From Acidimicrobiia bacterium (GTDB lineage Bacteria > Actinomycetota > Acidimicrobiia > Spongiisociales > Spongiisociaceae), in contig VXRE01000093.1 of the NCBI GenBank assembly GCA_009838635.1, positions 1-45,780 of the forward strand: a stretch of DNA of 45,780 nucleotides, written 5' to 3'. Under the pieces are notes generated by a model, which made no database searches, was not told the DNA's origin, and saw only the letters and a program-made list of their open reading frames with translations. Of this stretch, positions 2,623-24,997 are shown in pieces; within the stretch, counting starts at the first letter, position 1, and every line of letters starts with the position of its first letter. The translations under genes and the position numbers were made by a program.

Positions 2623-3936
2623 CTAGGACATTGCCGGGACGTCGAAGACCGTGGGTTCCGAGACCTCGGCCTCGAGTGCCGAGATGGCGGTCTCCACGAC
2701 CCGGCGGCGATACTCCATCTCGTCGGCCGTGTCCAGGTCCGGATCCCCGAAGGGATGGGTGACGGCCTTGCCCTGGACGATCCGGAGTACGCCCACGGAC
2801 TCGGCCAGCGGGACCAGCGCCGTGACCAGGGCCGCCGGAATGCCCTGGTTCTCGATCGACTTGGCGAGCGTAGACCCGCTACGCGTCCCTGTCCCTCAGG
2901 TCGAACCCACGATCGCGGCCTGAACCCCGTCGGCGATCAGGGCGCGTCCCATCTCGGCGCCGATGCGGGTCATGTCGCGCAGAGTGCCCATGTTGCCCGT
3001 GGTGCTCAGCAGCTCGGAGTGGAGGCTCAACCGGCCCGCCTGCTCCATGGACCGGGCGGCATCGAGCGGTACCTGGCGGTCGGGGTCCTGGTTGGCGAAG
3101 CTGGTGTCGATACCGCCGTGGACCGATTCGAACTCGCCCTCCGCGAAGCCTTCCCGGTCCTGGATCGGGTATCTCATCCAGTCGGTCGCCCATCCGGAAG
3201 GCAGGCGGTCGGGGTTGCCCGCCGGGACGATCCCCGCCTCGGTCACCAGCGCCAACCGGAAGGGGGCGCCCGTCGTGATCGGCTCGGAGGCCTCGGCGGG
3301 TTCGTAGCGGGGGAGCGGCCACTCGGTAGCGAAGGGCTCTCCGCGCATCTTCGTGAGCAGCATCTCGATCGCCCGGGTGGAACCCCGCAGGTCCTCGAAC
3401 GTGTTGCGCCGGAGCCCCTTGGTGAGGGTGCCCTCCTCCGCGGCGCTGCCGAGTTCTTCACCTCTAGCCAGCCTGGACGCCAGATGCGCGAGGCGCTCCA
3501 GTGCGGTGCCCATGCTGGCGGCTGTCTCGGCGGTGGCGAGAGTCGGGACCCAGGCCCGGTAGTCGGCGGCGCCCGGGCTGTCGGGGTGGAGTCCGGTGAC
3601 CGCCGGCACGCCGAGGTGTTCGATCACCGCCTTGCAGACCGCGCCGCAGGCCAGACCGTACCGTCCGGATCCGAAGGCCGGTCCGGCCACCACGACGTCC
3701 GGGTCGAACCCGGCGATCAGCCCGATCACCTCGTCCACGGCGCGGCTCCCGCCTTGCGCCATGTAGTTGTCGCCGCCGATGACGGTCCCGACGATCCGGT
3801 CCTCGCCTTCCAGGAAGCGGGTCAGGCCCCGGCCGCTTCCCACCGGACCCAGTTCGGAGACCGGTCCCATGCCTGCCTGGTCCTCACCGCCCAGTCCCCC
3901 GAAGAACTGGTTGAGATAGTGGACGATTCTCGCCAT
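2623..3936 (-). CDS. grdB-like: GrdB-like reductase component B selenoprotein; in-frame UGA read as selenocysteine
   Basis: The product resembles GrdB/GrdF/GrdH, the substrate-binding selenoprotein of glycine, sarcosine and betaine reductases. The N-terminus (HYLNQFFGGLGGEDQAGMGP) and the block VVAGPAFGSGRYGLACGAV are hallmarks. Conventional reading stops at UGA (2896-2898) after residue 346. Read as selenocysteine 347, the frame gives GTGTRSGSTLAKSIENQGIP and runs 90 residues to TAG at 2623, for 437 residues, the usual GrdB length. A bSECIS-like hairpin follows the UGA. The site reads U-G-T-G-T-R-S, so both cysteines of the clostridial UxxCxxC motif are replaced. The start ATG lies 10 bases after the grdE-like stop, so the two are co-transcribed. 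In known systems component B binds the amine and forms a selenoether passed to GrdA; no GrdA is present here. Automated callers would truncate this gene. Confidence 0.88.
2868..2884 (-). promoter_or_regulatory. bSECIS-like hairpin after the UGA of the GrdB-like gene
   Basis: On the minus strand GCGTAG pairs perfectly with CTACGC around the five-base loop CGGGT. The loop begins 18 bases after the UGA and contains adjacent G and U. Bacterial SECIS elements are short hairpins within the coding sequence whose apical loop lies roughly 16-37 bases past the UGA and usually holds a G and U that SelB recognises. Geometry and loop content both fit. A six-pair stem is modest, so binding by SelB is inferred. 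Confidence 0.65.
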
Positions 3937-3946
3937 CGGTTACCCC

Positions 3947-5281
3947 TCAGTACTCCTCGCCGCGGATACGTGTCCCACCGAACTGGTGGGTGCTGGCCAT
4001 GACGATGGCCAGCGGCGCCTCGAACGCGCCTGACGGGTCATCTTCGATCCGGATCAGTGCGTCACCACCGATCACCCGCTCCACGGGCTCGAAGCGGACG
4101 GCCTCCTCGTAGTTTCCGGTGCTCACGATGGCATCGGCCTCCGGAACGAAATGGACGAAGCCGGATTCGCCCGGGTTGGCCGCCATCTCCATCGACAGCA
4201 TCGTCGTGGTCACTCTCCGTCGCTCCAGGTTCCTGCAAATCATCATGGCGTCGACAGCGGGATGCCCGCCGCCGGCGTAGTTGATCAGCGCACCTTCGGC
4301 GCCCATCATGATCGCCAGGTTGGCCGCATGGTTGGCGAGGCGCTCCTTGGCGGCGCGGGTGTCTCCGTTGGTGAAGAGGACCACACCCCGGAAGTCGATG
4401 TCCTGGCCGTGGCGGGCGTAGAGATCCTCGATGATCGGGTGGTTCTGCACCGTGTAGGTGAGTTCCCGCATGCACGCGATGGCGTTCCAGCCGCACACCA
4501 GGGCCCCGTCGAGCAGCTCGTTGGGGTGGATCGGCGTGGGCAGGTGGGCGGCGCCGCCGATGGCCCCGGCGCCGGGAGCGATCTCGCCATGCAGGAACGG
4601 GATGGCCAGTTGGTACAGGTACACGACCGCCGGCAGCCCGTTGACCGGCGAGGGGGCCAGGTCGTAGGTGTCCACCCGGTCGGGTGTCTTGCCGAGCGTC
4701 GTCTCCGCCAGGTACCGGGCCGCCTTAAGGCCTGCGAGCCGGACCGCCTTGTTGTACTCGACCGCCTCCGGCGTTCCCTCGAAGACGTTGGTGGGACGGT
4801 CCTCGCTCTCGAGCAGTGCGGTGGTCGGTTCACAGGAGACCACCACGTTGATCAGTTCCGAGAGGGGCGAGTATCCGGCTGTGGATCCGGCCATGTCGAA
4901 GACGGCCTCCCGCCAGTAGCGCGGCTCGCCCGGTACCGGAAGGGCGGTCTCCACGACCGCCACCCCTTTCAGGGCGTGGGTGGTTCCCGTGCCGACCAGC
5001 CGCGGCACGGTCAGGAGACCCGAGAAGTCCGTGCCGGGAGGGTCCACCTTGATCCTCGGCTCCACCGCATCGATGGCGTTTATCACCCTGACCGATTCCC
5101 CGGGCCGGATGATCTCCACCGAGACGGCGGCAAGATCCGGATCCGCGGAGAGCTGGTCCTCCAACTCCTCGATGTTGATGGTCAGGATGCCGTCTGCGAA
5201 AGCGGTCTTGTCGCCGGCCCGGACATCGGACACGTCGAAGGCGCCGACGTCCAGGATCTGGCGGCGCGGGCCGGAGTTCAC
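3947..5281 (-). CDS. grdE-like: GrdE-like reductase component B alpha/beta proprotein (putative pyruvoyl enzyme)
   Basis: A 444-residue protein of the Gly_reductase family (GrdE/GrdG/GrdI, PrdA-like), partner of the selenoprotein encoded 10 bases downstream. In clostridial systems the proprotein cleaves itself at a cysteine to give two subunits, one capped by a pyruvoyl group that forms a Schiff base with the substrate amine. Features typical of the family are the early RVINAIDAVEPRIKVDPPGT block, the AHLPTPIHPNELLDGALVCGWNAIACM block and the late FTNGDTRAAKERLANHAANL and GAEGALINYAGGGHPAVD blocks. By position Cys263 (ALVCGW) is the best cleavage candidate, with Cys270 as alternative; I cannot confirm this from one sequence. 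The start is GTG at 5281 with GAGGGG upstream. The BKACE gene ends 58 bases upstream. Substrate could be glycine, sarcosine, betaine or something else. Confidence 0.83.
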   Translation of the reverse strand: MNSGPRRQILDVGAFDVSDVRAGDKTAFADGILTINIEELEDQLSADPDLAAVSVEIIRPGESVRVINAIDAVEPRIKVDPPGTDFSGLLTVPRLVGTGTTHALKGVAVVETALPVPGEPRYWREAVFDMAGSTAGYSPLSELINVVVSCEPTTALLESEDRPTNVFEGTPEAVEYNKAVRLAGLKAARYLAETTLGKTPDRVDTYDLAPSPVNGLPAVVYLYQLAIPFLHGEIAPGAGAIGGAAHLPTPIHPNELLDGALVCGWNAIACMRELTYTVQNHPIIEDLYARHGQDIDFRGVVLFTNGDTRAAKERLANHAANLAIMMGAEGALINYAGGGHPAVDAMMICRNLERRRVTTTMLSMEMAANPGESGFVHFVPEADAIVSTGNYEEAVRFEPVERVIGGDALIRIEDDPSGAFEAPLAIVMASTHQFGGTRIRGEEY

Positions 5282-5339: not shown

Positions 5340-6305
5340 TCATGCGACCTGCGGGAGGCCCAGCATCTGGCGGGCCTGGGCGGGGGTGGCGATCTCGCGG
5401 TTCATGTCTTCGGCGATCCTGCGGATGCGGCTCACCAGCTGGGCGTTGCCGGTGGCCTTCTCGCCCCGCCGGTAGTAGATGTTGTCTTCCAGACCGACCC
5501 GAACGTGGCCTCCCAGCAGGATTCCCAGGACGTTCATAGGGATCTGGAACGGCCCGGTGCCGATCACCGAGTAGAGGGCGCCGGCCGGGAGTTCGTTGAT
5601 GAGCGACATGAGGTTGGCGGGCGTCGGGAACGACGCGGTCTGGGCGCCCAGGACGAACTGCACCATGTAAGGGGGTGTCACGTTCTCGTTGTAGATCAGA
5701 TCGCGAAGCACCCAGTACTGGCCCGGGTCGTAGACCTCCAACTCCGGCTTCATCCCGCGCTCGGCGATCACCGACGCGTAGTGGTTCAGTTCACCGTAGG
5801 TGGTGCCGCTGCACATGTCGTACTCGACCGGCCCGCGGGGATGTGGGAGGTCGGAAGGCCGCTCGGGCATGGTGAACTTCGACACGAACGGGCCGAGGTT
5901 GAGGGTGGCCACGTCCGGGGCCGGGTCGGCGTACAGCGGCGAGTACCGTTCCTCCGTGGTCAGGGTGGGCCCGCCGCCGGTGCTGTTGTTGATGATCACA
6001 TCCGGGCACAGCTCCCGGATCATCCCGTTGACCTTCCCGTAGTCGGCGGGGTTGCCGGTGCACTGACTCCAGTCGTCGGGATCCCGCACATGCACGTGTA
6101 TCTGCGACGCGCCGGCCTCGTATGCCCTCCGGGCTTCCTCCGCCTGCTCCTCCGGGGTCTCGGGAAGAGCCGGGTTCGACTCCTTGCCATGGCCACCGCC
6201 GCTGATGGCCGCGGTGATGATCAGGGGCGGCAGCGCACTCCGAGCCGTCTTCCGCATCCAGAGGTACGGGTCGCGAAAGTCCCAAGTCGCTTCGATTTCG
6301 CCCAT
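5340..6305 (-). CDS. BKACE family beta-keto acid cleavage enzyme (DUF849)
   Basis: A 321-residue TIM-barrel enzyme of the BKACE/Kce family, which condenses a beta-keto acid with acetyl-CoA and cleaves it to a CoA ester and acetoacetate or a related product. The signatures are PLIITAAISGGGHGKE near residues 27-41, the zinc-binding His70/His72 pair in IHVHVRDPDD, NNSTGGGPT, a later PELEVYD that should hold the third ligand Glu, and RVGLEDNIYYRRGEKA near the C-terminus. I use ATG at 6305 because AAAGGA lies 7 bases before it; an ATG at 6332 has none. Family members act on 3-keto-5-aminohexanoate, dehydrocarnitine and others. Placement between a deaminase-like amidohydrolase and the GrdE/GrdB pair suggests an amine-bearing keto acid, but that is inference. 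Confidence 0.88.
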   Translation of the reverse strand: MGEIEATWDFRDPYLWMRKTARSALPPLIITAAISGGGHGKESNPALPETPEEQAEEARRAYEAGASQIHVHVRDPDDWSQCTGNPADYGKVNGMIRELCPDVIINNSTGGGPTLTTEERYSPLYADPAPDVATLNLGPFVSKFTMPERPSDLPHPRGPVEYDMCSGTTYGELNHYASVIAERGMKPELEVYDPGQYWVLRDLIYNENVTPPYMVQFVLGAQTASFPTPANLMSLINELPAGALYSVIGTGPFQIPMNVLGILLGGHVRVGLEDNIYYRRGEKATGNAQLVSRIRRIAEDMNREIATPAQARQMLGLPQVA

Positions 6306-6320
6306 CGGTGTTCCTTTCGA

Positions 6321-6330
6321 GACAGCTGTC
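6321..6330. promoter_or_regulatory. Perfect 10-bp palindrome before the BKACE gene
   Basis: GACAGCTGTC is perfectly self-complementary and sits 15 bases upstream of the chosen BKACE start, directly before its ribosome site, inside the 91-base gap after the amidohydrolase gene. Read on the minus strand it overlaps TTGACA. A repressor operator for the BKACE-grdE-grdB segment is possible, but 10-bp palindromes also arise by chance in GC-rich DNA. Confidence 0.22.
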
Positions 6331-6396
6331 AACCCCCGGTCGGTGCCTCGTCCTGGTACCGAGGGACCACCTTACGAGGCCCGAATCATAAAGAAC

Positions 6397-7875
6397 CTAG
6401 CCCTCCGACCGATCAAGCGTGGTCGGGGGTGTTTCGGTCATCCGCCACGGTTCGAGCAGCGGGGAGAGACCCGCCCGGGCGACGAGGTCCGCGGCTCGCC
6501 CGTTCGCTTCCTCGACGACGGCCGCTTCGTCCACCATCGTGCAGCTGCCGTTCTCGAAGATGACATCGCCGCCGACGATCGTATGGGTCACGTCGGCGGG
6601 GCCGGTCGAGTAAACGACAGAAGCCACCGTGCGGTGGAGCGGTGAATGGTGAGGAGCGGACTGATCCACGATCACCAGGTCCGCGAGCTTCCCCGGCGCG
6701 ATGACACCGGCTTCGATCCCCATGTACTCGGCGCCGGCGCGGGTGGCGAGTTCGATCGCTTCCTCACCGTTCGACTCGGTGGGGTTCTGGGAGTGGACGC
6801 GCTGGAGGAGGACCGCCTGCTTCATGCAGGCGAACATGTCCAGCCGGTGCCCGCTGCCCCCGTCCAGACCGAGAGCAACGGTTGCGCCGGCGCCGCGCAG
6901 GTCGCGGAGACGCATCACTCCCAAGGCTATGTACTGATGGGAGATCGGGCAGTAGGCGATACCGGTTCGGGAGTCCCCGACCAGTTCGACCTCGCGGTCG
7001 TCGAGGAAGATCCCGTGGGCCAGGGTGGCGCCCCGGCCCAAGAGCCCCCGCTCAGCCAGCCACAGCACCGGCCTGCGGTCGTACTCCTCGAGATAGAAGA
7101 CCGGGTCGTTCGCCGCCTCCGAGCAATGCGAGTGCCAGCCGACGCCTTTCTCGTGTGCCAGACCGACCGCATCGACCACGAGGTCCTGGCTGACGTAGAT
7201 GATGTTGAGGGGCGCCGGCCAGACGCCGACCCGGGCGCCGGCCGGGCGGGCCTCGATACAGGCCCGGGTGATGTCGATCTCCTCCTGGTTGGCGTAGCGG
7301 AACAACTCGCCCGCCAGGCCGTGCTTGACCGCCATCCCGGTCAGTTCGCCGGTCATGCCCCTGGCGACCGCCCCTCGCAGCCCGACCGCCTCGATGGCGT
7401 CCGCCACGGCCAGGGTGGATGCGAAGTCGGTAGGTGCGTAATGGTTGTCGAGCACGGTGGTGACGCCGGCGCGAGCGGCCTCCACCGCTCCGAGTTGAGC
7501 GCCGATCCTGGCCTCATCGATGGAGATGGCGGTGGTGACCGGCCACATGAAGTCAGACAGCCAAGGCCACAGCTCCAGGCCTTCTCCGAGACCCCGCGTC
7601 AGGTACTGGAACAGGTGCTGGTGGGTGTCCACGAGCCCGGGCAGGACCGCCCCTCCGGTGGCGTCGATGACCTGTTTCGCTTGGTAGTGACCGAGATCAC
7701 GGGCGGTGCCGACCGCGACGATCCGATCCCCGGTTATGGCTACCGCTCCCGGGTCGATAACCCGGCGCCGGTCGTCCACGGTGACCACCGTCCCTCCGGT
7801 GATGAGGAGATCGCAGGGGACAGGCTCCGAGGTGACCGGGCCCTCCTGGGAGCCTCCGGCGGGTGGACTCACCAT
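6397..7875 (-). CDS. Amidohydrolase, deaminase-type (TRZ/ATZ, MtaD/SahH-deaminase-like)
   Basis: A 492-residue metal-dependent hydrolase of the cytosine-deaminase/AtzA-like branch. It begins with the usual small beta domain (LLITGGTVVTVDD, then DATGGAVLPGLVDTHQHLFQ with His85 and His87). It continues with a barrel carrying GWHSHCSEA and TLAHGIFLD, and LGLDGGSG supplies the late Asp. A C-terminal beta domain (APGKLADLVIVDQ) closes the fold. Members remove amino or chloro groups from purines, triazines and related rings; YCPISHQYIALG replaces the common Cys-Pro-x-Ser-Asn form. The start overlaps the stop of the upstream tandem-ABM gene in ATGGTGA, indicating translational coupling. BKACE follows after 91 bases. 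The substrate is unknown; a nitrogen-bearing compound imported by the nearby ABC systems is a fair guess. Confidence 0.82.
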   Translation of the reverse strand: MVSPPAGGSQEGPVTSEPVPCDLLITGGTVVTVDDRRRVIDPGAVAITGDRIVAVGTARDLGHYQAKQVIDATGGAVLPGLVDTHQHLFQYLTRGLGEGLELWPWLSDFMWPVTTAISIDEARIGAQLGAVEAARAGVTTVLDNHYAPTDFASTLAVADAIEAVGLRGAVARGMTGELTGMAVKHGLAGELFRYANQEEIDITRACIEARPAGARVGVWPAPLNIIYVSQDLVVDAVGLAHEKGVGWHSHCSEAANDPVFYLEEYDRRPVLWLAERGLLGRGATLAHGIFLDDREVELVGDSRTGIAYCPISHQYIALGVMRLRDLRGAGATVALGLDGGSGHRLDMFACMKQAVLLQRVHSQNPTESNGEEAIELATRAGAEYMGIEAGVIAPGKLADLVIVDQSAPHHSPLHRTVASVVYSTGPADVTHTIVGGDVIFENGSCTMVDEAAVVEEANGRAADLVARAGLSPLLEPWRMTETPPTTLDRSEG

Positions 7876-8531
7876 CCGGTGTCCGGCGGCCAGATGTTCG
7901 GCCCGGAGATGGGCTCGAGCGCTCCGTCCGAGTAGTACCCCCCGTACCGATCGAGATGAGCAGCCGTGTACGGTGCGGCCGCGTGGTCGCCCGCCGCGTC
8001 GGCATCGGTGTGGACCCGATAGAGCCAGAACTCGGTGGAGAGGTCGAGATTCTGGTTGATGTCGAAACGGAGCAGCCCCTGTTCCGCTGCTGCGGCCGCA
8101 TGGGCCTGCTCCGTCACCGAGGCGATGAAGCCGTCCGTGTCCTCGGGTCGCACGGAGATGCGCGCCTGGTAGACCACCATCCCCCCGGTGGATGGAGGAT
8201 CTTCGGATCGCTCCCCGGTCGCGTCACGGCGCGCCTTGGCGGTGCTGTCGAGGCTGCGGCACGTCGCCCAGACCAGTTGATCCGCCATTCCATCGGTAGC
8301 CGCGAACCAGGCTGCGAAGTGCGCCGACTCGCCGTGGGCTTCGACCGCGCCGTCATCGTCGTAGATCTCGTTGAATCCCACCCTGGCCGGGTCCGTATCG
8401 TCACCGAAGATGTCGAAACGGCGGCACCCTGGCTCGGTCGCCACAGACGCACGGGCGTTGGCGATCGACGCCGTCAGGAACCTGTCCAGGTGATCCTGGC
8501 GGATGGTGGCCTGAACAGTGATGGTTCTCAT
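7869..8531 (-). CDS. Tandem antibiotic-biosynthesis-monooxygenase (ABM) domain protein
   Basis: A 220-residue protein with two ferredoxin-like ABM modules in one chain. Module 1 (about residues 1-95) begins MRTITVQATIRQDHLDRFL and has TEPGCRRFDIFGDD. Module 2 (about residues 110-205) begins VVYQARISVRPEDTDGFI and has EQGLLRFDINQN. The repeated order is beta strand, helix, x-G-C/L-L/R-R-F-D-I strand, then the acid-rich strand. ABM proteins usually act as dimers of single modules as cofactor-free monooxygenases or quinol oxidases, so this fusion mimics a dimer. It is the first gene of a minus-strand series and overlaps the next by the ATGGTGA junction. It is divergent from the ABC permease gene with 155 bases between, which probably hold promoters for both. 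The reaction is not known. Confidence 0.8.
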   Translation of the reverse strand: MRTITVQATIRQDHLDRFLTASIANARASVATEPGCRRFDIFGDDTDPARVGFNEIYDDDGAVEAHGESAHFAAWFAATDGMADQLVWATCRSLDSTAKARRDATGERSEDPPSTGGMVVYQARISVRPEDTDGFIASVTEQAHAAAAAEQGLLRFDINQNLDLSTEFWLYRVHTDADAAGDHAAAPYTAAHLDRYGGYYSDGALEPISGPNIWPPDTGW

Positions 8532-10282: not shown

Positions 10283-10384
10283 GCAGTACCGGCCTCCTGC
10301 CGTACTCGGCGTGCACAAAACCAGGTGCATTCCCCGACCAGGGGTGGCAGACTGAAGCATCCGAGGCGAAGTAGGAGGAGACCA

Positions 10385-11563
10385 TTGCGGTACACACGTA
10401 GATCACGACTAGGCGGGATGATTCTCGTATTGGCCTTGCTGGCGGCCGCGTGCGGGGATGACGAGCCTGCCGCCACGACGGCTGCTCCTGCCACGACCGC
10501 CGCGCCCGCAACCACGGCCGCGCCGGATACGACAGCAGCGCCGGATACGCCGGCTGCGCCCACCACGACGGCTGCGCCCACGACGACGGCGGCACCGACC
10601 ACCGAAGCTCCCATGGAACCGACGGTCATCCGTGTCCGGCTGAACTGGACGGCGGATCCAGGATTCCTGGGGCTGTACATGGCGGACGAATTGGGGTTCT
10701 TCACCGAGGAGAACGTAGTGGCCGAGTTCGAGTACGGCGGCCCCAACGTGCCGCATCCCGTCCAGATCCTGGCCGGGGGAGCTGCGGACATCGGCTTCGG
10801 AGGTCTGGCCATCATTGCCGATGCGGTGTCACAGGGCGATGAATTCGTGATCTTCGGGACAAGGCTTCAAGAGGGCATCCTGGGGATCAGTTCCCTGGCC
10901 TCGGACCCGATCCTGACTGCGAGCGACATATGCGGCAGCAAGATCGGGGCCACCCCCGGTGACATAGTCCAACTCGATGCGCTTCTGACCCTCAACGGGC
11001 TGGAGGCCGGGTGTTACGACATGGTCCCGGTTGGTTACGACCCGTCACCGGTCGCTGAAGGCTTGGTGCGTGGCCAGATCAACTACATGAACAGCCACCC
11101 CGTCATCCTCGATTTCATGGGCATCGACAACGTCGCCGTGTCCTATGCCGACTTGGGCATGCAGATGTATCACGACCTGGCGTTCGTCAACCGAAGCTTC
11201 CTGGACGCCAACCGCGATGCGATGGTGGGATTCCTGCGGGCGATGATCAAGGGCTGGGAAGCGGCCTTCGCCGATCCGGATGCCGCCATCGACCTGATGA
11301 TGAACAAGTGGGGAGGGGCCGAGATCGGTATGGACATCTCGTTCCAGCGGCCCGTCCATGACGCTCAGGTGCCTTTGATGACGAGCAGCCTCACCGACGA
11401 GAAGGGTCTGTTCCAGATGGACTTCGATCTCATGGCGTCCACCATGTGGGACGTCCTGGCCCTCACGGGTATCGAGAACCTTCCCAGTGCCGAGTCGATG
11501 ATCGACACCAGCCTGCTCGACGATGCGTTCGCCGGCTGCGGAGCTTCGCTCCTCGAGTGCTGA
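10385..11563 (+). CDS. ABC transporter substrate-binding lipoprotein (NMT1/THI5/TauA-like), set 1
   Basis: A 392-residue secreted binding protein. The start is TTG at 10385, just after AGGAGG; an ATG at 10325 lacks a site. The signal peptide runs through LALLAAAC with the lipid-modified cysteine at about residue 23, followed by a low-complexity linker of repeated Thr-Ala-Ala-Pro-type units to about residue 75. The binding domain begins VIRVRLNWTADPGFLGLYMAD, with GFFTEENV and GGAADIGFGG, matching the NMT1/SsuA-type fold for thiamine precursors, sulfonates and similar small ligands. It ends with GCGASLLEC, a pair of cysteines that the set-2 protein also has. A strong terminator follows. The ligand cannot be predicted. 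Confidence 0.9.
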   Translation: MRYTRRSRLGGMILVLALLAAACGDDEPAATTAAPATTAAPATTAAPDTTAAPDTPAAPTTTAAPTTTAAPTTEAPMEPTVIRVRLNWTADPGFLGLYMADELGFFTEENVVAEFEYGGPNVPHPVQILAGGAADIGFGGLAIIADAVSQGDEFVIFGTRLQEGILGISSLASDPILTASDICGSKIGATPGDIVQLDALLTLNGLEAGCYDMVPVGYDPSPVAEGLVRGQINYMNSHPVILDFMGIDNVAVSYADLGMQMYHDLAFVNRSFLDANRDAMVGFLRAMIKGWEAAFADPDAAIDLMMNKWGGAEIGMDISFQRPVHDAQVPLMTSSLTDEKGLFQMDFDLMASTMWDVLALTGIENLPSAESMIDTSLLDDAFAGCGASLLEC

Positions 11564-14753: not shown

Positions 14754-15704
14754 CTACAACGGCGAGAAGGCGTCTGCCTCCTCCAGGGCGTCCAGTACGG
14801 CCAGGTAGGCCAGGTCCCGCTTGCGCACCACCTCTCGCTCGGAGCGGCCGCCGTAGTCATAGAAGCCTCGGCCCGTCTTGGGTCCGTAGAAGCCCTGGTC
14901 GACGACCTCCTTGAGGTAGGGCGGCACTTCGAGGCCCATCTCTGCCGTGCCTTCGGCGATCAGGTCGAGCCCGTTGAAGTCCAGACTCTGGAAGATGCCC
15001 ACCAGCCCCAGCCGCACGCCCACGCTGGTCTTCAACGCGAAGTCGATGTCCTCCAGCGTCGCGGCGCCGTCGTCCATCAGCTCCTCCGCCGCAGCCCCCA
15101 TCGCCATCATGACCTTGTTGGCGATGAAGCCGATCGCGAACCGATTCATCACGAGCGGCTGCTTCCCGATGCGCCGGAGCAGGTCGGCCGTCCACTCGAG
15201 CGAGTCTCCGGACGAGTCGGGTCCGCCGGCGACCTCCACCAGAGGGATGATGTACGCAGGCATGAACCAGTGGGCGCAGACGAACCGCTCGGGTCTGGCG
15301 GCCGTCACCTGCGTGAACAGGTCCAAGGCCGAGGTGTTGCTCGCCAGCACCACATCGGGCGCGGCCGCATCCTCGAACGCGTTGACGACCGCCTGCTTGG
15401 CGGCGATGGTCTCGCTCACCACTTCCATAGCGAACTCTGCCCGGGCCGCTGCCTCGGCCAGCGAGGTGGTCGGATGGAGGCGCCCCAGGATCGTAGGGAT
15501 CTCGTGGGAAGCCAAGCGGCCTGCATCGACCAGAATTCGTAGGTTGGCCTCCACCAGTCCGGGGGCGCGCGCCAATGCCGTCTCGTCGAGGTCCACCAAG
15601 TCCACATCGATCCCGGCTTGGGCGAAGACTTGGGCGATCGAATGCCCCATCGTCCCGGCGCCCATCACGGTGATGCGCTGTACTTCTCCCGGGCTAGGTC
15701 GCAT
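14754..15704 (-). CDS. 3-hydroxyacyl-CoA dehydrogenase family protein
   Basis: A 316-residue NAD-dependent dehydrogenase. The N-terminal Rossmann domain opens ITVMGAGTMGHSIAQVFAQA, with VDLVDLDE ending in the Asp that selects NAD. MEVVSETIAAKQ and LASNTSALDL are classical. The catalytic His and Glu lie in CAHWFMPAYIIPLVEV, and the C-terminal domain has NRFAIGFIANKVMMAM and QGFYGPKTGRGFYDY. The length and the HWFMPxYxIPLVEV form are shared by hydroxyacyl-CoA dehydrogenases, L-carnitine dehydrogenase and gulonate dehydrogenase, so a non-CoA hydroxy acid substrate is possible. The start is ATG at 15704; the open frame continues upstream to 16409 only as an antisense shadow of the SDR gene. It lies 32 bases after the SDR stop and is probably co-transcribed with it. 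Confidence 0.87.
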   Translation of the reverse strand: MRPSPGEVQRITVMGAGTMGHSIAQVFAQAGIDVDLVDLDETALARAPGLVEANLRILVDAGRLASHEIPTILGRLHPTTSLAEAAARAEFAMEVVSETIAAKQAVVNAFEDAAAPDVVLASNTSALDLFTQVTAARPERFVCAHWFMPAYIIPLVEVAGGPDSSGDSLEWTADLLRRIGKQPLVMNRFAIGFIANKVMMAMGAAAEELMDDGAATLEDIDFALKTSVGVRLGLVGIFQSLDFNGLDLIAEGTAEMGLEVPPYLKEVVDQGFYGPKTGRGFYDYGGRSEREVVRKRDLAYLAVLDALEEADAFSPL

Positions 15705-16680: not shown

Positions 16681-17586
16681 ATGGTCAGCGTCGACTGTCA
16701 TCTGCATCTCGGCGTGGTCCCGGACCATATACCCGAGTGGTGGTTGACCGAGATGTACCGACCGTACGGGGGTGGAGCGCTCGCCAACTACGACGGGCAG
16801 TGGATAGTCGACCTCCTGGATCGTTCCGGAGTCGATGTCGGTCTGGTCCAGGGTGGAGACATGCGGCGCACGACCTACCATCCTGATCATCCCGCCGACC
16901 ATGACGTATACGTCCCCAACGACTACACGGCCCACCAGGTCGCTCTCTTTCCGGACAGGTTGAAGGGCGTCGCATGTATCGACCCGATCAGGGATGTGGG
17001 CGCTGCCCTGGAGGAACTGGACCGATGCGTCAACGAGTTGGACTTCCGCGCCCTCAAGCTGCTGGGTTCCTACCTTCACTTCTCGCCCAACGACCGGCGC
17101 CTGGATCCGATCTACGAGAAATGCATCGAGTTGGGCATCCCCGCCCACTTCTTCACCGGATGGACCCCGATCATCATGGCCAAGCTCGAAAACGCCGATC
17201 CGGTGCAACTCGACGAGCTCGGCCGTCGCTTCCGCGACCTCAAGGTGATCATCTCGATGGCCGATCCTTGGATCGACCAGTGCATCCTGCTGGTGGCGAA
17301 GCACCCCAACTTCCACGGCGACATGTATCACTTCGCCGAACTCGGGCCTGAGCCTCTGTTCGAGACCCTGGACCGGTTCCGTTCGCTGTCGGCGCTCGAC
17401 CGGGTGCTGTACGGATCCAACAACAGCGACAAGGTGCGGGTCGGCCGGGAGGAAGCCACGGTGCCGGACGTGTACCGCAGCGTGAACCGGGTCGCCCGAG
17501 AGCGGGGGGCCGAGCCGTTCACAGACGAGGAGATGGCGGCGATACTGGGTGGTAACGCGGCGCGCCTGTACGGATTGGGGGACTGA
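16681..17586 (+). CDS. Amidohydrolase-2-like TIM-barrel protein, paralogue 2 (metal site degenerate)
   Basis: A 301-residue paralogue, very close to paralogue 1 along its whole length: both share LLDRSGVDVGLVQG, DPIRDVGAALEE, LSALDRVLYGSNNSDKVRVGREE and VPDVYRSVN. It opens VSVDCHLHLG with both histidines. The ligand positions changed in paralogue 1 are changed here too: Phe at 158 (HFFTGWTPII), no His in the strand ISMADPW, and Asn instead of Asp in GSNNSD. The gene is followed 3 bases later by paralogue 3, which has an intact site, so the two proteins are made together and could form a mixed oligomer. The start ATG lies 8 bases after GGGAGG. It is divergent from the SDR/dehydrogenase pair. 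Confidence 0.82.
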   Translation: MVSVDCHLHLGVVPDHIPEWWLTEMYRPYGGGALANYDGQWIVDLLDRSGVDVGLVQGGDMRRTTYHPDHPADHDVYVPNDYTAHQVALFPDRLKGVACIDPIRDVGAALEELDRCVNELDFRALKLLGSYLHFSPNDRRLDPIYEKCIELGIPAHFFTGWTPIIMAKLENADPVQLDELGRRFRDLKVIISMADPWIDQCILLVAKHPNFHGDMYHFAELGPEPLFETLDRFRSLSALDRVLYGSNNSDKVRVGREEATVPDVYRSVNRVARERGAEPFTDEEMAAILGGNAARLYGLGD

Positions 17587-17589
17587 CCA

Positions 17590-18462
17590 ATGGTAACGAT
17601 CGACTGTCACCTGCACGTGACCGAGGTGCCCGAGCACGCTCCCGAGTGGTGGGTACGGGAGATGTACGCGCCATGGGGATGGGACGTCGGTTCCGTGGAC
17701 GGTTCAGATATCGTCGAACACCTGGATGCCACCGGATTCGATATCGGCATGATCCAGGGTGGAGACATCCGCCGCACGACCTACCACCCCGATCATCCTG
17801 CCGACCACCGCGTCTTCGTTCCCAACGACTACGTCGCTCACCAGGTCGCCCTGTCCGGGGGCCGACTCTATGGCGTGGCGGCGATGGATCCGCTTCGGGA
17901 CATCCCGGCGGCGATGCTCGAGTTGGAGAGATGCGTCAAGGAACTGGATTTCCGGCTGCTCAAGCTGGTGCCGACCTATCACCACTACGCCCCGAATGAC
18001 CGGCGGCTGGACCCGCTCTATGAGAAGTGTCTCGAGTTGGACATACCGGTGATGGTCCACACCGGATGGACGGCCACAATCAACTCGGCGATGGAGTTCC
18101 AGGACCCGATCCAGCTGGATGACATCGGACGTCGCTACCGGGATCTGAAGGTCATCGTCGCGCATCTCGGTTACCCGTGGGTGGATGAAGGGGTGGCCGT
18201 GGTCGCCAAGCACCCCAACTTCTACGCCGAGATGGCGGGATGGACCGCCTGGGGACCCGAAATCCTGGCGGGCGCCCTCGTGAAGCTCAAGGAACTCGGC
18301 GCTATCAACCGCGTGGTCTTCGGATCGGACAACACCGACGCGAGGAATCTCTACCGTGATGCCCGCCGGATCGCACGCGAGCAGGGCACCGATATCACCG
18401 ATGAGGAGATGGCCGGGATCATGGGCGGCACGGCGGCGGAGCTCTTCCGGATCAGCGCGTAG
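17590..18462 (+). CDS. Amidohydrolase-2-like TIM-barrel protein, paralogue 3 (complete metal site)
   Basis: A 290-residue protein and the only one of the five with every expected ligand: His7 and His9 (DCHLHV), His157 (VHTGWTA), His192 (VAHLGYPW) and Asp247 (FGSDNTD). This is the pattern of metal-dependent amidohydrolase_2 enzymes such as ACMSD-type decarboxylases and lactone hydrolases. It lacks the Asp-Lys-Val/Ile-Arg insertion after the late Asp that all four others have, which makes it about 10 residues shorter. The rest is clearly homologous (IRRTTYHPDHP, VPNDYVAHQV, APNDRRLDPLYEK). It is translated directly behind paralogue 2 and ahead of an SDR gene 54 bases downstream. It is the best candidate in the set for real hydrolytic or decarboxylating activity. 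Confidence 0.85.
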   Translation: MVTIDCHLHVTEVPEHAPEWWVREMYAPWGWDVGSVDGSDIVEHLDATGFDIGMIQGGDIRRTTYHPDHPADHRVFVPNDYVAHQVALSGGRLYGVAAMDPLRDIPAAMLELERCVKELDFRLLKLVPTYHHYAPNDRRLDPLYEKCLELDIPVMVHTGWTATINSAMEFQDPIQLDDIGRRYRDLKVIVAHLGYPWVDEGVAVVAKHPNFYAEMAGWTAWGPEILAGALVKLKELGAINRVVFGSDNTDARNLYRDARRIAREQGTDITDEEMAGIMGGTAAELFRISA

Positions 18463-19780: not shown

Positions 19781-19878
19781 GGCCGGATTCTATGCCCCCA
19801 CCGGCCGGGCCTGATCACGGCCGGCCCCTGCTAGTACTGTGCGGGATCAAGCCAGGTAACCCACCACTAGGAGCGACC

Positions 19879-20781
19879 ATGGTCACCGTCGACTGCCACC
19901 AGTACATCGGTTTGACACCGAGCCAGGTCCCCAAGTGGTGGATGGAGGAGATGTACCTGCCGTACGGGGGCACGGGCGTCTCCCGGTATGGCCAGGACAT
20001 CGTGGACATGATCGACGACGCCGGAATCGACATCGCGATCGTACAGGGGGGCGACATCCGGCGTACCACCTCGCATCCGGACCATCCCGGCGACCACGGG
20101 GTGTACATCCCCAACGAGTGGATCGCCCAAGAGGTGGCGAAACACCCGGGCCGGCTCCTCGGCCAGGTGGCGGTCGATCCGTTGCGCGATCCGCAGGACG
20201 CCCTCGCCGAGACCGAGTACTTCATCAAGGAGCACGGGTTCGTGGCCCTGGCGCTCAAGACCGCCTACCACGACCATGCCATCAACGACCGCCGGGTATA
20301 TCCCTTCTACGAGAAGTGCATCGAGCTGGACGTTCCCGTGGACCTCTTCACGGGGTGGACGCCGATCATCAACGCTCCTATGAAGTACTCGAATCCGATC
20401 CTGCTGGACGACGTGGGCAGGGAGCTCCGCGACCTTAAGGTGGTCTTCTACCTGGCCTTTCCATGGATCGATGAGGGGATCGCCGTTGCCGCCCGCCATC
20501 CCAACTTCTACATGGACCTGGCGTGGTTCGGAGGGGGGAGCGCGGAGCAGCTCTACGACGCGCTGCTGAAGATCAAGGACTTCGGGGCTATCGATCGGGC
20601 CCTGTACGGGTCGGACGGGAACGACAAGATCAGGATCGGCAAGAACGTGGCGACGGTCCCCGAGCTCTTCCGCGCCGTGAACGAGGTCGCCGAGAGGCGG
20701 GGTACGGCTGAAATCTCAGACGACGAGATGGAGGCCATCATGGGGGGCACCGCCAACCGGCTGTACAAGCTCGGCTTGTAG
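19879..20781 (+). CDS. Amidohydrolase-2-like TIM-barrel protein, paralogue 4 (most altered HxH site)
   Basis: A 300-residue paralogue starting at ATG 19879, seven bases after AGGAG. It is the only one in which the first metal motif itself is broken: VDCHQYIG has Tyr at residue 9 in place of His. It also has Phe in LFTGWTPII, no His in the FYLAFPW strand, and GSDGNDKIRIGKN, where the Asp is kept and the Asp-Lys-Ile-Arg insertion is present. With at most two canonical ligands left, tight metal binding in the family manner is unlikely. Yet the frame is open, codon use is normal, and long blocks such as GGDIRRTTSHPDHPGDHG and YEKCIELDVPVDLFTGWTP are conserved. It converges on the set-2 binding protein with a terminator between. 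Confidence 0.82.
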   Translation: MVTVDCHQYIGLTPSQVPKWWMEEMYLPYGGTGVSRYGQDIVDMIDDAGIDIAIVQGGDIRRTTSHPDHPGDHGVYIPNEWIAQEVAKHPGRLLGQVAVDPLRDPQDALAETEYFIKEHGFVALALKTAYHDHAINDRRVYPFYEKCIELDVPVDLFTGWTPIINAPMKYSNPILLDDVGRELRDLKVVFYLAFPWIDEGIAVAARHPNFYMDLAWFGGGSAEQLYDALLKIKDFGAIDRALYGSDGNDKIRIGKNVATVPELFRAVNEVAERRGTAEISDDEMEAIMGGTANRLYKLGL

Positions 20782-20882: not shown

Positions 20883-22064
20883 CTAGCAGTCCAGCAATGA
20901 GGAGCCGCAGCCCTCGTAGGCGGACTCGAGGATCGAGATGTCGTAGACGTCGGCGGCGTCCGGAACCGATTCAAGCCCGGTAGCCGTGATCACGTAACCG
21001 TTCTGGATGTTCTGGATCTGGTCGAGATCGAACCAGAACAGGCCCTTCTCATCGGTGAGGGGGCTGGTCATCAGGGGGATCTGTGCCTCGTGGATCGGGA
21101 ACTGGTCCTCGAGGACCAGGCCGAGATCGACCCCGCCCCACGTGTTCATCACCAGGTCGATCGCGTGGGCAGGATCGTTGAATGCGTATTCCCAGCCCCT
21201 GATGTTGGCCCGGAGGAAGCCCACGATCGCCTCACGATTGTTGGCCATGAACTCTGTCGTAGTGAAGAACAGGTCCTGGTAGGCGGGCAAACCCATCTCG
21301 CTGAAGGTCCAGCTGACGTTGCAGATCCCCTGCGCGTTCAGCGGGAGGGGATGGCTGTTGACCCAGATCAGCATGCCGTCGACCGTTCCGTCGACCACCG
21401 GCGACATGTCCCAGCCGGCCGGAATCAGCTCGTAGGTGCCGGGCTCCAACCCGTTGGCGGTCAGCAGCGCGTCTATCAGGAATCCGTCGGTGGTGCCGCC
21501 TGCGATCTTCTTTCCGGCGATATCGGCCGGTGAGTTGATCGGGTTGTCGCAGAGCGAGCCGATGCCGGTCGGGTCGGACTGCATCCTGACGCCGAACACC
21601 ACGAAGTCGGCTCCCTCAGACATGGCCAGAGCGAGCGAGAACGGATCGGTGACGCCGATATCGGCTGCTCCGCCCGCAACCACCTGGGTCGAGTTGGGCA
21701 CGTTCGGGCCGCCATGCTCGATCGTGACGTGGATATTCTCGTCATCGAAGAAGCCCTGCTCGACGGCCTCGTAGAGCCCCATGAAGCCGGGGTCGGCGAT
21801 CCAGCTCAGCCTGAGCCTGATATCGGTCGGCTCGGCGGGCGCGGGTGCCGCGGTGGTCGTCGGGGCGGCCGTGGTGGTCGTAGCTGCCGCGGTGGTCTCG
21901 GTCATCTCGGCCTCGGTCGTGGTCGGCGCGGCCGTGGTAGTCGGCGCGGCCGTAGCCTGTGTTGCCTGCGTCTCGGCAGTCTCGTCGTCTCCGCAGGCAA
22001 CCGCCAAGAGCGCGAGGAGCGCAACCACCGATATCCACTTGACCCGTTTCCTCTGGGTAATCAT
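20883..22064 (-). CDS. ABC transporter substrate-binding lipoprotein (NMT1/THI5/TauA-like), set 2
   Basis: A 393-residue homologue of the set-1 binding protein. The start ATG at 22064 follows AGGAGGAG; an earlier in-frame start at 22154 is not needed. The signal peptide ends LLALLAVAC with the lipidation Cys at about residue 24, then a Thr/Ala/Pro/Glu linker to about residue 80. The binding domain matches set 1 block by block: LRLSWIADPGFMGLYEAVEQGFF, GGPNVPNSTQVVAGGAADIG, NNREAIVGFLRANIRGWEYAF and LMTSPLTDEKGLFWFDLDQ, with the same Cys-Gly-x-Ser-Leu-Leu-x-Cys ending. Ligand-contact regions differ (TDPFSLALAM against FGGLAIIADAV), so the ligands may be related but not identical. It is the last gene after two split permeases, 187 bases downstream of them. 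Confidence 0.9.
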   Translation of the reverse strand: MITQRKRVKWISVVALLALLAVACGDDETAETQATQATAAPTTTAAPTTTEAEMTETTAAATTTTAAPTTTAAPAPAEPTDIRLRLSWIADPGFMGLYEAVEQGFFDDENIHVTIEHGGPNVPNSTQVVAGGAADIGVTDPFSLALAMSEGADFVVFGVRMQSDPTGIGSLCDNPINSPADIAGKKIAGGTTDGFLIDALLTANGLEPGTYELIPAGWDMSPVVDGTVDGMLIWVNSHPLPLNAQGICNVSWTFSEMGLPAYQDLFFTTTEFMANNREAIVGFLRANIRGWEYAFNDPAHAIDLVMNTWGGVDLGLVLEDQFPIHEAQIPLMTSPLTDEKGLFWFDLDQIQNIQNGYVITATGLESVPDAADVYDISILESAYEGCGSSLLDC

Positions 22065-22251
22065 GCGTTCTCCTCCTGGTAGTCGCGCTCCGACAATTCC
22101 TAGCTCATTCCGTGCGCGCATCGGGCGAACCGATCCGCCGGCCCGGACAAGCATACCGATGCAGGTTCGCCGCCCACCGGGATGGACTGCCGCACGACAC
22201 GAACGAGCGCGCCCGATGATCGCTTTCGGCTGACGCCGAACCCGCGCTCGC

Positions 22252-24097: not shown

Positions 24098-24997
24098 ATG
24101 GTCACCGTAGATTGCCATCTACACCTCACCGAGGTGCCGGAGCAGGTCCCGCATTGGTGGATGCAGGAGCTGTACCGGCCGTACGGCGTCGAGTACGGCA
24201 CCACCGACGGGGAGTGGATGGTGAACCTGCTCGACAGGTCGGGAATCGACATCGGGATGGTCCAGGGGAGCGACATCCGCCGCACCACCTTCCATCCTGA
24301 CCATCCCGGCGAGTACGAGGTGTACGTGCCGAACGACTACACCGCCGGCCAGGTCGCCATGTACCCGGACCGGCTGAAGGGCGTCGCGTGCATCGACCCG
24401 ATGCGGGGTATTCCGTGGGCGGTCGAGGAGCTGGAACGGTGCGTGAAGGAGTTGGACTTCCGGGCCCTCAAGCTCGTTCCCAGCTACCAGCTCTACTCCC
24501 CGAACGACCGCAGCCTGGACCCGTTGTACGAAAAGGCCATCGAGCTGGACATCCCGGTGCATTTCTTCACGGGATGGACCCCCATCATCAACGCGTCGCT
24601 GGAGTTGGCGGACCCGTTCCTGCTGGACGGTGTGGGACGACGCTTCCGCGACATGAAGGTCATCGTCGTTATCAACTGGCCCTGGGTGACCAAGGGGATA
24701 CTGATGGTGGCGAAGCATCCCAACTTCCATGCCGATCTCTGCCACTTCGCCGGCGGAGCGCCCGAGCCCCTTCATGACGCCCTTGCCATGCTCAGGTCAT
24801 ACGTAGCGACCGGTCGGGCCATGTACGGCTCGGACAACAGCGACAAGGTTCGCATCGACAATGACTTCGCCGCGGTGCCGGAGCTCTACCGGAGGGTCAA
24901 CGATGTCGCCGAGCGCCAGGGCTCCGAGCCGTTCACGGACGAGGAACTGGCCGCGATCATGGGAGGCACCGCCGCCCGCCTATACAAGCTGAGGTAG
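24098..24997 (+). CDS. Amidohydrolase-2-like TIM-barrel protein, paralogue 5 (metal site degenerate)
   Basis: A 299-residue paralogue with VDCHLHLTEVPEQVPHWWM at the start (both histidines kept). The changes seen in the other altered members recur: Phe in HFFTGWTPII, no His in the strand VVINWPW, and the insertion DKVRIDND after GSDNSD, where the Asp is retained. It departs from the others in KEGSDIRRTT-type positions (QGSDIRRTTFHPDHPGEY) and in RSYVATGRAMYG. ATG at 24098 follows CAGGAGAG. The PhyH-like oxygenase gene begins 6 bases after the stop, so the two are almost certainly co-translated. It faces the set-2 transporter operon back to back, which links this family to uptake of its ligand. 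Confidence 0.82.
   Translation: MVTVDCHLHLTEVPEQVPHWWMQELYRPYGVEYGTTDGEWMVNLLDRSGIDIGMVQGSDIRRTTFHPDHPGEYEVYVPNDYTAGQVAMYPDRLKGVACIDPMRGIPWAVEELERCVKELDFRALKLVPSYQLYSPNDRSLDPLYEKAIELDIPVHFFTGWTPIINASLELADPFLLDGVGRRFRDMKVIVVINWPWVTKGILMVAKHPNFHADLCHFAGGAPEPLHDALAMLRSYVATGRAMYGSDNSDKVRIDNDFAAVPELYRRVNDVAERQGSEPFTDEELAAIMGGTAARLYKLR

Follow-up and report, generated by a model that had tools for sequence, protein, structure and literature searches.

The grdB-like gene at positions 2623–3936 of the contig analyzed here raises the question of whether the UGA within its coding sequence ends the protein or is read as selenocysteine (Sec), and, if the latter, what a selenoenzyme of this type would be doing in an Acidimicrobiia bacterium. 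The window, by which we mean the whole stretch of 45,780 nucleotides that was analyzed, is an entire contig (C138) of a draft assembly (2.89 Mb in 171 contigs, 95.75% complete) from a marine, probably sponge-associated actinobacterium, whose nearest named relatives are metagenome-assembled genomes of Acidimicrobiia. We note that positions 1–100 of the window are a low-complexity C/G run at the contig end, which is probably an assembly or sequencing artefact.

The in-frame UGA and the sequence beyond it

A sequence-only reading of this locus, which gave no strand, had proposed a frame that stops at a UGA in codon 347 and then resumes to a TAG, for a total of 437 residues. Translation with TGA read as U bears this out: the gene lies on the minus strand and runs from an ATG at 3936 to a TAG at 2623, with 437 codons including a single in-frame TGA at codon 347 (2896–2898, minus strand), which sits in the peptide context AAIVGST-U-GTGTRSG and is followed by 90 further residues. 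Without readthrough the frame is 346 amino acids long. Taking into account both the G+C content and a spurious plus-strand frame of 581 amino acids that spans the same bases, a long open frame alone is no evidence for this gene; rather, it is homology, SECIS pairing, and conservation in the compared sequences that place the grdB-like selenoprotein far beyond chance. The product matches Pfam GRDB (PF07355) with 373 bits and TIGR01918 with 415 bits (cut-off 65), the latter from residues 3 to 432 and along the 431-position model from end to end, such that the earlier description of the protein as GrdB-like holds over its full length.

The alternative is that UGA347 is an ordinary stop, the product a truncated GrdB of 346 amino acids, and the downstream frame a remnant. 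Standard gene calling does end at this codon, as this alternative would have it, but the genome encodes a complete Sec machinery, as all four components that were searched for are present above their cut-offs: tRNA-Sec with anticodon UCA (77 bits, gathering score 47), selA (418 bits, cut-off 268, contig C55), selB as a single 594-amino acid frame directly after selA (320 bits, cut-off 242), and selD (377 bits, cut-off 125). Furthermore, conservation speaks against an ordinary stop: the Sec347 column reads TGA in all 98 aligned GrdB copies and Cys in none, in an alignment of the family genomes with 80 loci of other bacteria in which some genomes appear under two locus identifiers, so that the copies are not all independent. 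Within the family, TGA stands at this column in every full-length relative, as it does in 26 of 26 copies from the class, which were found in 24 genomes in a survey of 395 and which contain exactly one TGA each. The remark that selenoproteins are uncommon in actinobacteria calls for a refinement: earlier reports exist (PMC1794560), and the TIGR01918 gene is found in 24 of these 395 genomes.

The downstream part is also kept across the aligned relatives, rather than decaying behind an ordinary stop. In the 80 codons after the UGA, changes are mainly third-position and synonymous, the same as in the 100 codons before it, and, judged from this pattern of substitution, the stretch after UGA347 evolves as protein, with TIGR01918 being matched through to its end; both observations argue against a remnant. 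In the AlphaFold model of the GrdB-like protein, which is of high confidence along its whole length (mean pLDDT 91.6), Sec347 begins a helix that lies mid-domain, between strands 340–344 and 368–372. According to this model, a protein stopping at residue 346 would lack the latter half of the domain, which again disfavors truncation. A sequence search of the PDB returned no relative of GrdB or GrdE, and the Foldseek matches of the GrdB model were uninformative, the two at E < 0.001 being solute-binding proteins with TM-scores of at most 0.26.

The RNA just past the UGA carries a further signal, in the form of a SECIS-type hairpin (GCGUAG-CGGGU-CUACGC, positions 2868–2884, minus strand) that starts 14 nucleotides after the U of the UGA. 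For this sequence, the stability of the hairpin is not significant by itself, as 7% of synonymous shuffles are equally stable, and the hairpin energy alone would therefore be compatible with an ordinary stop. Because this energy is weak, we took covariation as evidence instead. The four inner core pairs of the hairpin form in all 77 distinct 45-mers, and pair 18/26, which joins the first base of codon 353 to the degenerate third base of codon 355, forms in 88 of 88 distinct sequences, as UA, AU, or GC. Of the 75 distinct sequences with UGC (Cys) as codon 353, 74 have an A at the end of codon 355 and one has a G, giving a U-G pair; even Ser355 is written UCA in three of these sequences. All 11 sequences with AGC (Ser) as codon 353 have UCU as codon 355, and both of those with GGC (Gly) have a C at the end of codon 355. 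The AGC/UCU and GGC/GCC forms are each confined to one lineage, such that there are few independent switches. Among the sequences compared, pair 18/26 is the clearest sign of selection on the RNA, and such covariation is not what an ordinary stop would predict.

Taking all of this together, we consider it extremely improbable that UGA347 is an ordinary stop, and we are highly confident that the gene encodes a GrdB-type component-B selenoprotein in which UGA347 is decoded as Sec. The claim that this is a true selenoprotein, truncated by gene callers, is therefore well backed by the Sec machinery together with the conserved TGA and downstream part, with the call ending at 346 amino acids.

The window genome encodes at least four apparent selenoproteins. 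In addition to the grdB-like gene, grdA has an in-frame UGA in a CFVU motif, and selD (L021:6424-7473, contig C91) has its own in-frame UGA in the context GGGUASKLG, making selenophosphate synthetase itself an apparent selenoprotein. Contig C91 also carries (L020:6833-7780; positions 6833–7780, plus strand) a further GrdB/PrdB-like gene, a short one whose in-frame UGA lies in VPVUPVCHQS. This gene and its UGA are kept in 13 family genomes, including one (G006) without GrdB and GrdA, and it probably encodes one more selenoprotein, with a role of its own.

Partner subunits and the cysteines that are replaced

Directly upstream of the grdB-like gene lies a gene for a GrdE-like component B subunit of 444 amino acids (positions 3947–5281, minus strand; PF09338, 326 bits). 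Relative to the clostridial GrdB, GrdF, and GrdH proteins (TIGR01918, PF07355), the system resembles its counterparts in the full-length homology of the Sec subunit (41–47% identity to the aligned clostridial copies), in the placement of Sec in an STUGT context, in the adjacent GrdE-type subunit, and in the presence of GrdA and GrdC in the genome. It differs from them, however, in the loss of both cysteines of the UxxCxxC motif, in a partner subunit without the pyruvoyl-forming Cys, in the lack of GrdD, in the separation of grdA and grdC from grdB, and in a genome that contains heme-copper oxidases. In the case of the motif, the protein reads UGTGTRS where the canonical sequence is UGTCTRC, and other Acidimicrobiia copies keep the second Cys, as UGTGTRC or UGTSTRC; the motif is said to interact with GrdA (PMC13188914). 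In the case of the GrdE-like protein, the cleavage site reads WNAIACM as opposed to the canonical NCVSACDK, and the alignment places Asn266 at the pyruvoyl-forming Cys, which is residue 242 in the GrdE of C. difficile (PMC9908766). The protein forms a clade with the other BKACE-linked Acidimicrobiia copies (support 100/99; BKACE being a beta-keto acid cleavage enzyme family), with the copy of one Acidimicrobiales locus, L079, on a long branch.

The remaining partners are found on another contig (C70) of this draft genome, where GrdC (593 bits, cut-off 450) and GrdA (197 bits, cut-off 130) lie side by side. The separate contigs are tied to one system by L079, where BKACE, GrdE, GrdB, GrdC, and GrdA follow one another in one row. 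Of the 15 family genomes, 12 have both full-length GrdB and GrdA, and three have neither. The subunit responsible for acetyl phosphate formation, GrdD, was found in none of these 15 genomes, where no score exceeded 28 bits (cut-off 350), while the positive controls Caloramator and Formimonas scored 582–622 bits. Candidates at about 20–27 bits were rejected, the one from the window genome being PlsX beside an RNase III gene, as judged from sequence and gene order. For a single genome, GrdD might be hidden in the 4% that is missing, but this is not plausible for all 15.

A search for GrdD likewise found no match in the genomes, of unstated completeness, to which several other GrdB/GrdC/GrdA loci belong (Deltaproteobacteria, Chloroflexi, Nealsonbacteria, and Desulfofundulus). 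Loci from other phyla (L064, L068, L070, L075, L095, and L110) have the order GrdE-GrdB-GrdC-GrdA, as compared to the clostridial order E-A-B-C. For five of them (L064, L068, L070, L075, and L110) the corresponding genomes yielded no GrdD, and this GrdD-free type of Grd system is possibly widespread.

These features bear directly on whether the enzyme could be an ordinary component B of glycine or sarcosine reductase, yielding acetyl phosphate. This reading is in line with the best overall matches of the two subunits, which are to GrdF (409 bits) and GrdG (232 bits), and with the presence of GrdA and GrdC, but it conflicts with the replacement of the pyruvoyl Cys by Asn and of both UxxCxxC cysteines, with the absence of GrdD, and with scores that fall far under the equivalog or exception cut-offs (GrdF model, cut-off 800; GrdB equivalog TIGR01917, 393 bits, cut-off 602; GrdH model, 368 bits, cut-off 775). 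Glycine or sarcosine is an unlikely substrate because these motifs are missing, and we regard this reading as quite improbable. The sequence comparisons point instead to a system that is not a standard glycine reductase, and whose substrate is probably not glycine.

Losses of this kind are reported from two known systems. In the fluoroacetate reductase of Cloacibacillus porcorum MFA1, FarB is without CxxC and FarE without the pyruvoyl cysteines, and GrdI of betaine reductase is reported likewise not to be a pro-protein (PMC10838667). The former raises the possibility of a FarB/FarE-like reductive dehalogenase with a haloacetate as its substrate, for example one from halogenated sponge metabolites. 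The losses of CxxC and of the pyruvoyl Cys do match those of FarB and FarE, but the FarE model reaches only 135 bits (cut-off 675), a score lower than that for GrdG, only one of the two cysteines is lost in the other Acidimicrobiia copies, and neither the antiporter or other far-type transporter nor the radical-SAM gene of the far operon was seen among the annotated neighbors, which are instead BKACE and an amidohydrolase. We therefore consider a dehalogenase of this type unlikely, albeit less so than an ordinary glycine or sarcosine reductase. The D-proline reductase PrdA/PrdB is related only as a distant homologue with the same two-subunit design, as the PrdB model gives 56 bits (cut-off 300) over part of the protein, and the PrdA model 35 bits (cut-off 700).

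Gene neighborhood and candidate substrates

The gene order on the minus strand suggests a probable operon, which would begin with a two-domain ABM-family protein (positions 7869–8531; PF03992 in two stretches), the gene for which overlaps the start of an amidohydrolase of the deaminase/chlorohydrolase (SsnA/AtzA-like) type (positions 6397–7875; PF01979, 165 bits), probably in the same operon, followed by a BKACE-family enzyme (positions 5340–6332; PF05853, 278 bits), the GrdE-like protein, and GrdB. Both the ABM-family and the amidohydrolase genes are found at the same place in L050–L055, and the BKACE-GrdE-GrdB order is kept in nine of nine close relatives (L050–L058) and in L079.

We note some further features of the surroundings. 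There are five Amidohydro_2 paralogues in the window, with the pattern MVTVDCHLHL...WWM.EMYRPYGG (positions 1647–2582, 16681–17586, 17590–18462, 19792–20781, and 24098–24997, plus strand), and two further paralogues beside grdA on contig C70, which is an unusual local expansion. Near the probable operon, the window also contains two THI5/NMT1-type solute-binding proteins (positions 10325–11563 and 20883–22154), with ABC permease or ATPase genes, and the ligand of these proteins may hint at the substrate. The assignment of a 3HCDH protein (positions 14757–15701) as a carnitine dehydrogenase was unsupported, as it scored 117 and 97 bits where the cut-offs are 592 and 414.

The preferred reading of UGA347, as Sec in a GrdB-type component B, leads to the following proposal for the chemistry. 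SelB and Sec-tRNA would decode UGA347, aided by the SECIS hairpin within the coding sequence just past the UGA. Together, GrdB and its GrdE-like partner would then bind a small carboxylate whose alpha carbon bears a leaving group, and, by homology, Sec347 would attack this carbon, such that the leaving group is released and a carboxymethyl selenoether is formed. The carboxymethyl group would pass to the Sec of GrdA and be reduced, and the resulting acetyl group would be taken up by GrdC, again by homology. Since the GrdE-like protein is without the pyruvoyl Cys and GrdB without both UxxCxxC cysteines, the substrate would form no Schiff base, and could be betaine, another quaternary-ammonium compound, or a non-amine compound, perhaps made from a 3-keto acid by the adjacent BKACE; without the pyruvoyl group, betaine-like or halogenated compounds are favored over amines that require a Schiff base. 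Because GrdD is absent, release of acetyl phosphate is unlikely, and our guess is that the acetyl group probably passes to CoA or another acceptor.

Within this proposal, a special case is that of a betaine reductase releasing trimethylamine, fed by carnitine or choline catabolism via BKACE. The BKACE of Pseudomonas aeruginosa turns 3-dehydrocarnitine into a betaine unit (PMC12482172), and carnitine use has been reported for the sponge-symbiont guild, including Acidimicrobiia (PMC5649159), which together make a carnitine- or choline-derived betaine our first guess. This is also consistent with the adjacency of BKACE in the relatives named above, with the report that GrdI, too, is not a pyruvoyl pro-protein, with the Sec subunit of GrdH/GrdI belonging to the same family, and with a choline-sulfatase (602 bits, cut-off 433) that follows grdB at a distance of about 0.7 kb in one relative (L057). 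However, the GrdH model scores below GrdF, no carnitine dehydrogenase was found above cut-off among the window genes tested, no betaine transporter was recognized adjacent to the genes, with the nearby transporter having a THI5-like binding protein, and the BKACE is nearest to the 3-keto-5-aminohexanoate cleavage models, although below cut-off. On balance, betaine, and with it a reductase of this type, is the first choice among the substrates considered here, but a tentative one.

Significance for the organism and the family

Membership of the GrdB family is itself known, and the Sec trait is not new in these organisms: SelA and SelB are reported to co-occur in most sponge-symbiont bins, and to be missing from most related reference genomes (PMC5649159). 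What is new here is that CxxC, pyruvoyl Cys, and GrdD are all three lost in a system that has a BKACE partner and belongs to a bacterium carrying cytochrome oxidase genes, and a search of the literature found no description of this cluster or of Grd in Acidimicrobiia. The grdB-like system suggests a function for the Sec machinery noted in sponge symbionts (PMC5649159).

The presence of heme-copper (cytochrome) oxidase genes in the window genome makes it probable that the organism can respire oxygen. This leaves room for a broader and more speculative reading, which we would put forward with considerable doubt, in which a GrdD-less and pyruvoyl-free selenoenzyme, coupled to BKACE, would serve oxygen-respiring actinobacteria by passing acetyl groups via GrdA and GrdC to CoA, such that Stickland-type selenium chemistry would allow an animal symbiont to assimilate the carbon of an organohalide or a quaternary amine.

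For annotation, the consequence is more immediate, as standard gene calling would yield a protein of 346 amino acids that ends at its active site. Selenium-dependent reductase chemistry is best known from anaerobic amino-acid fermenters. The readthrough described here shows it to be conserved in a genus of Acidimicrobiia, with cytochrome oxidase genes in the window genome, and the combined lack of CxxC, pyruvoyl Cys, and GrdD suggests that both its substrate and its product are different.
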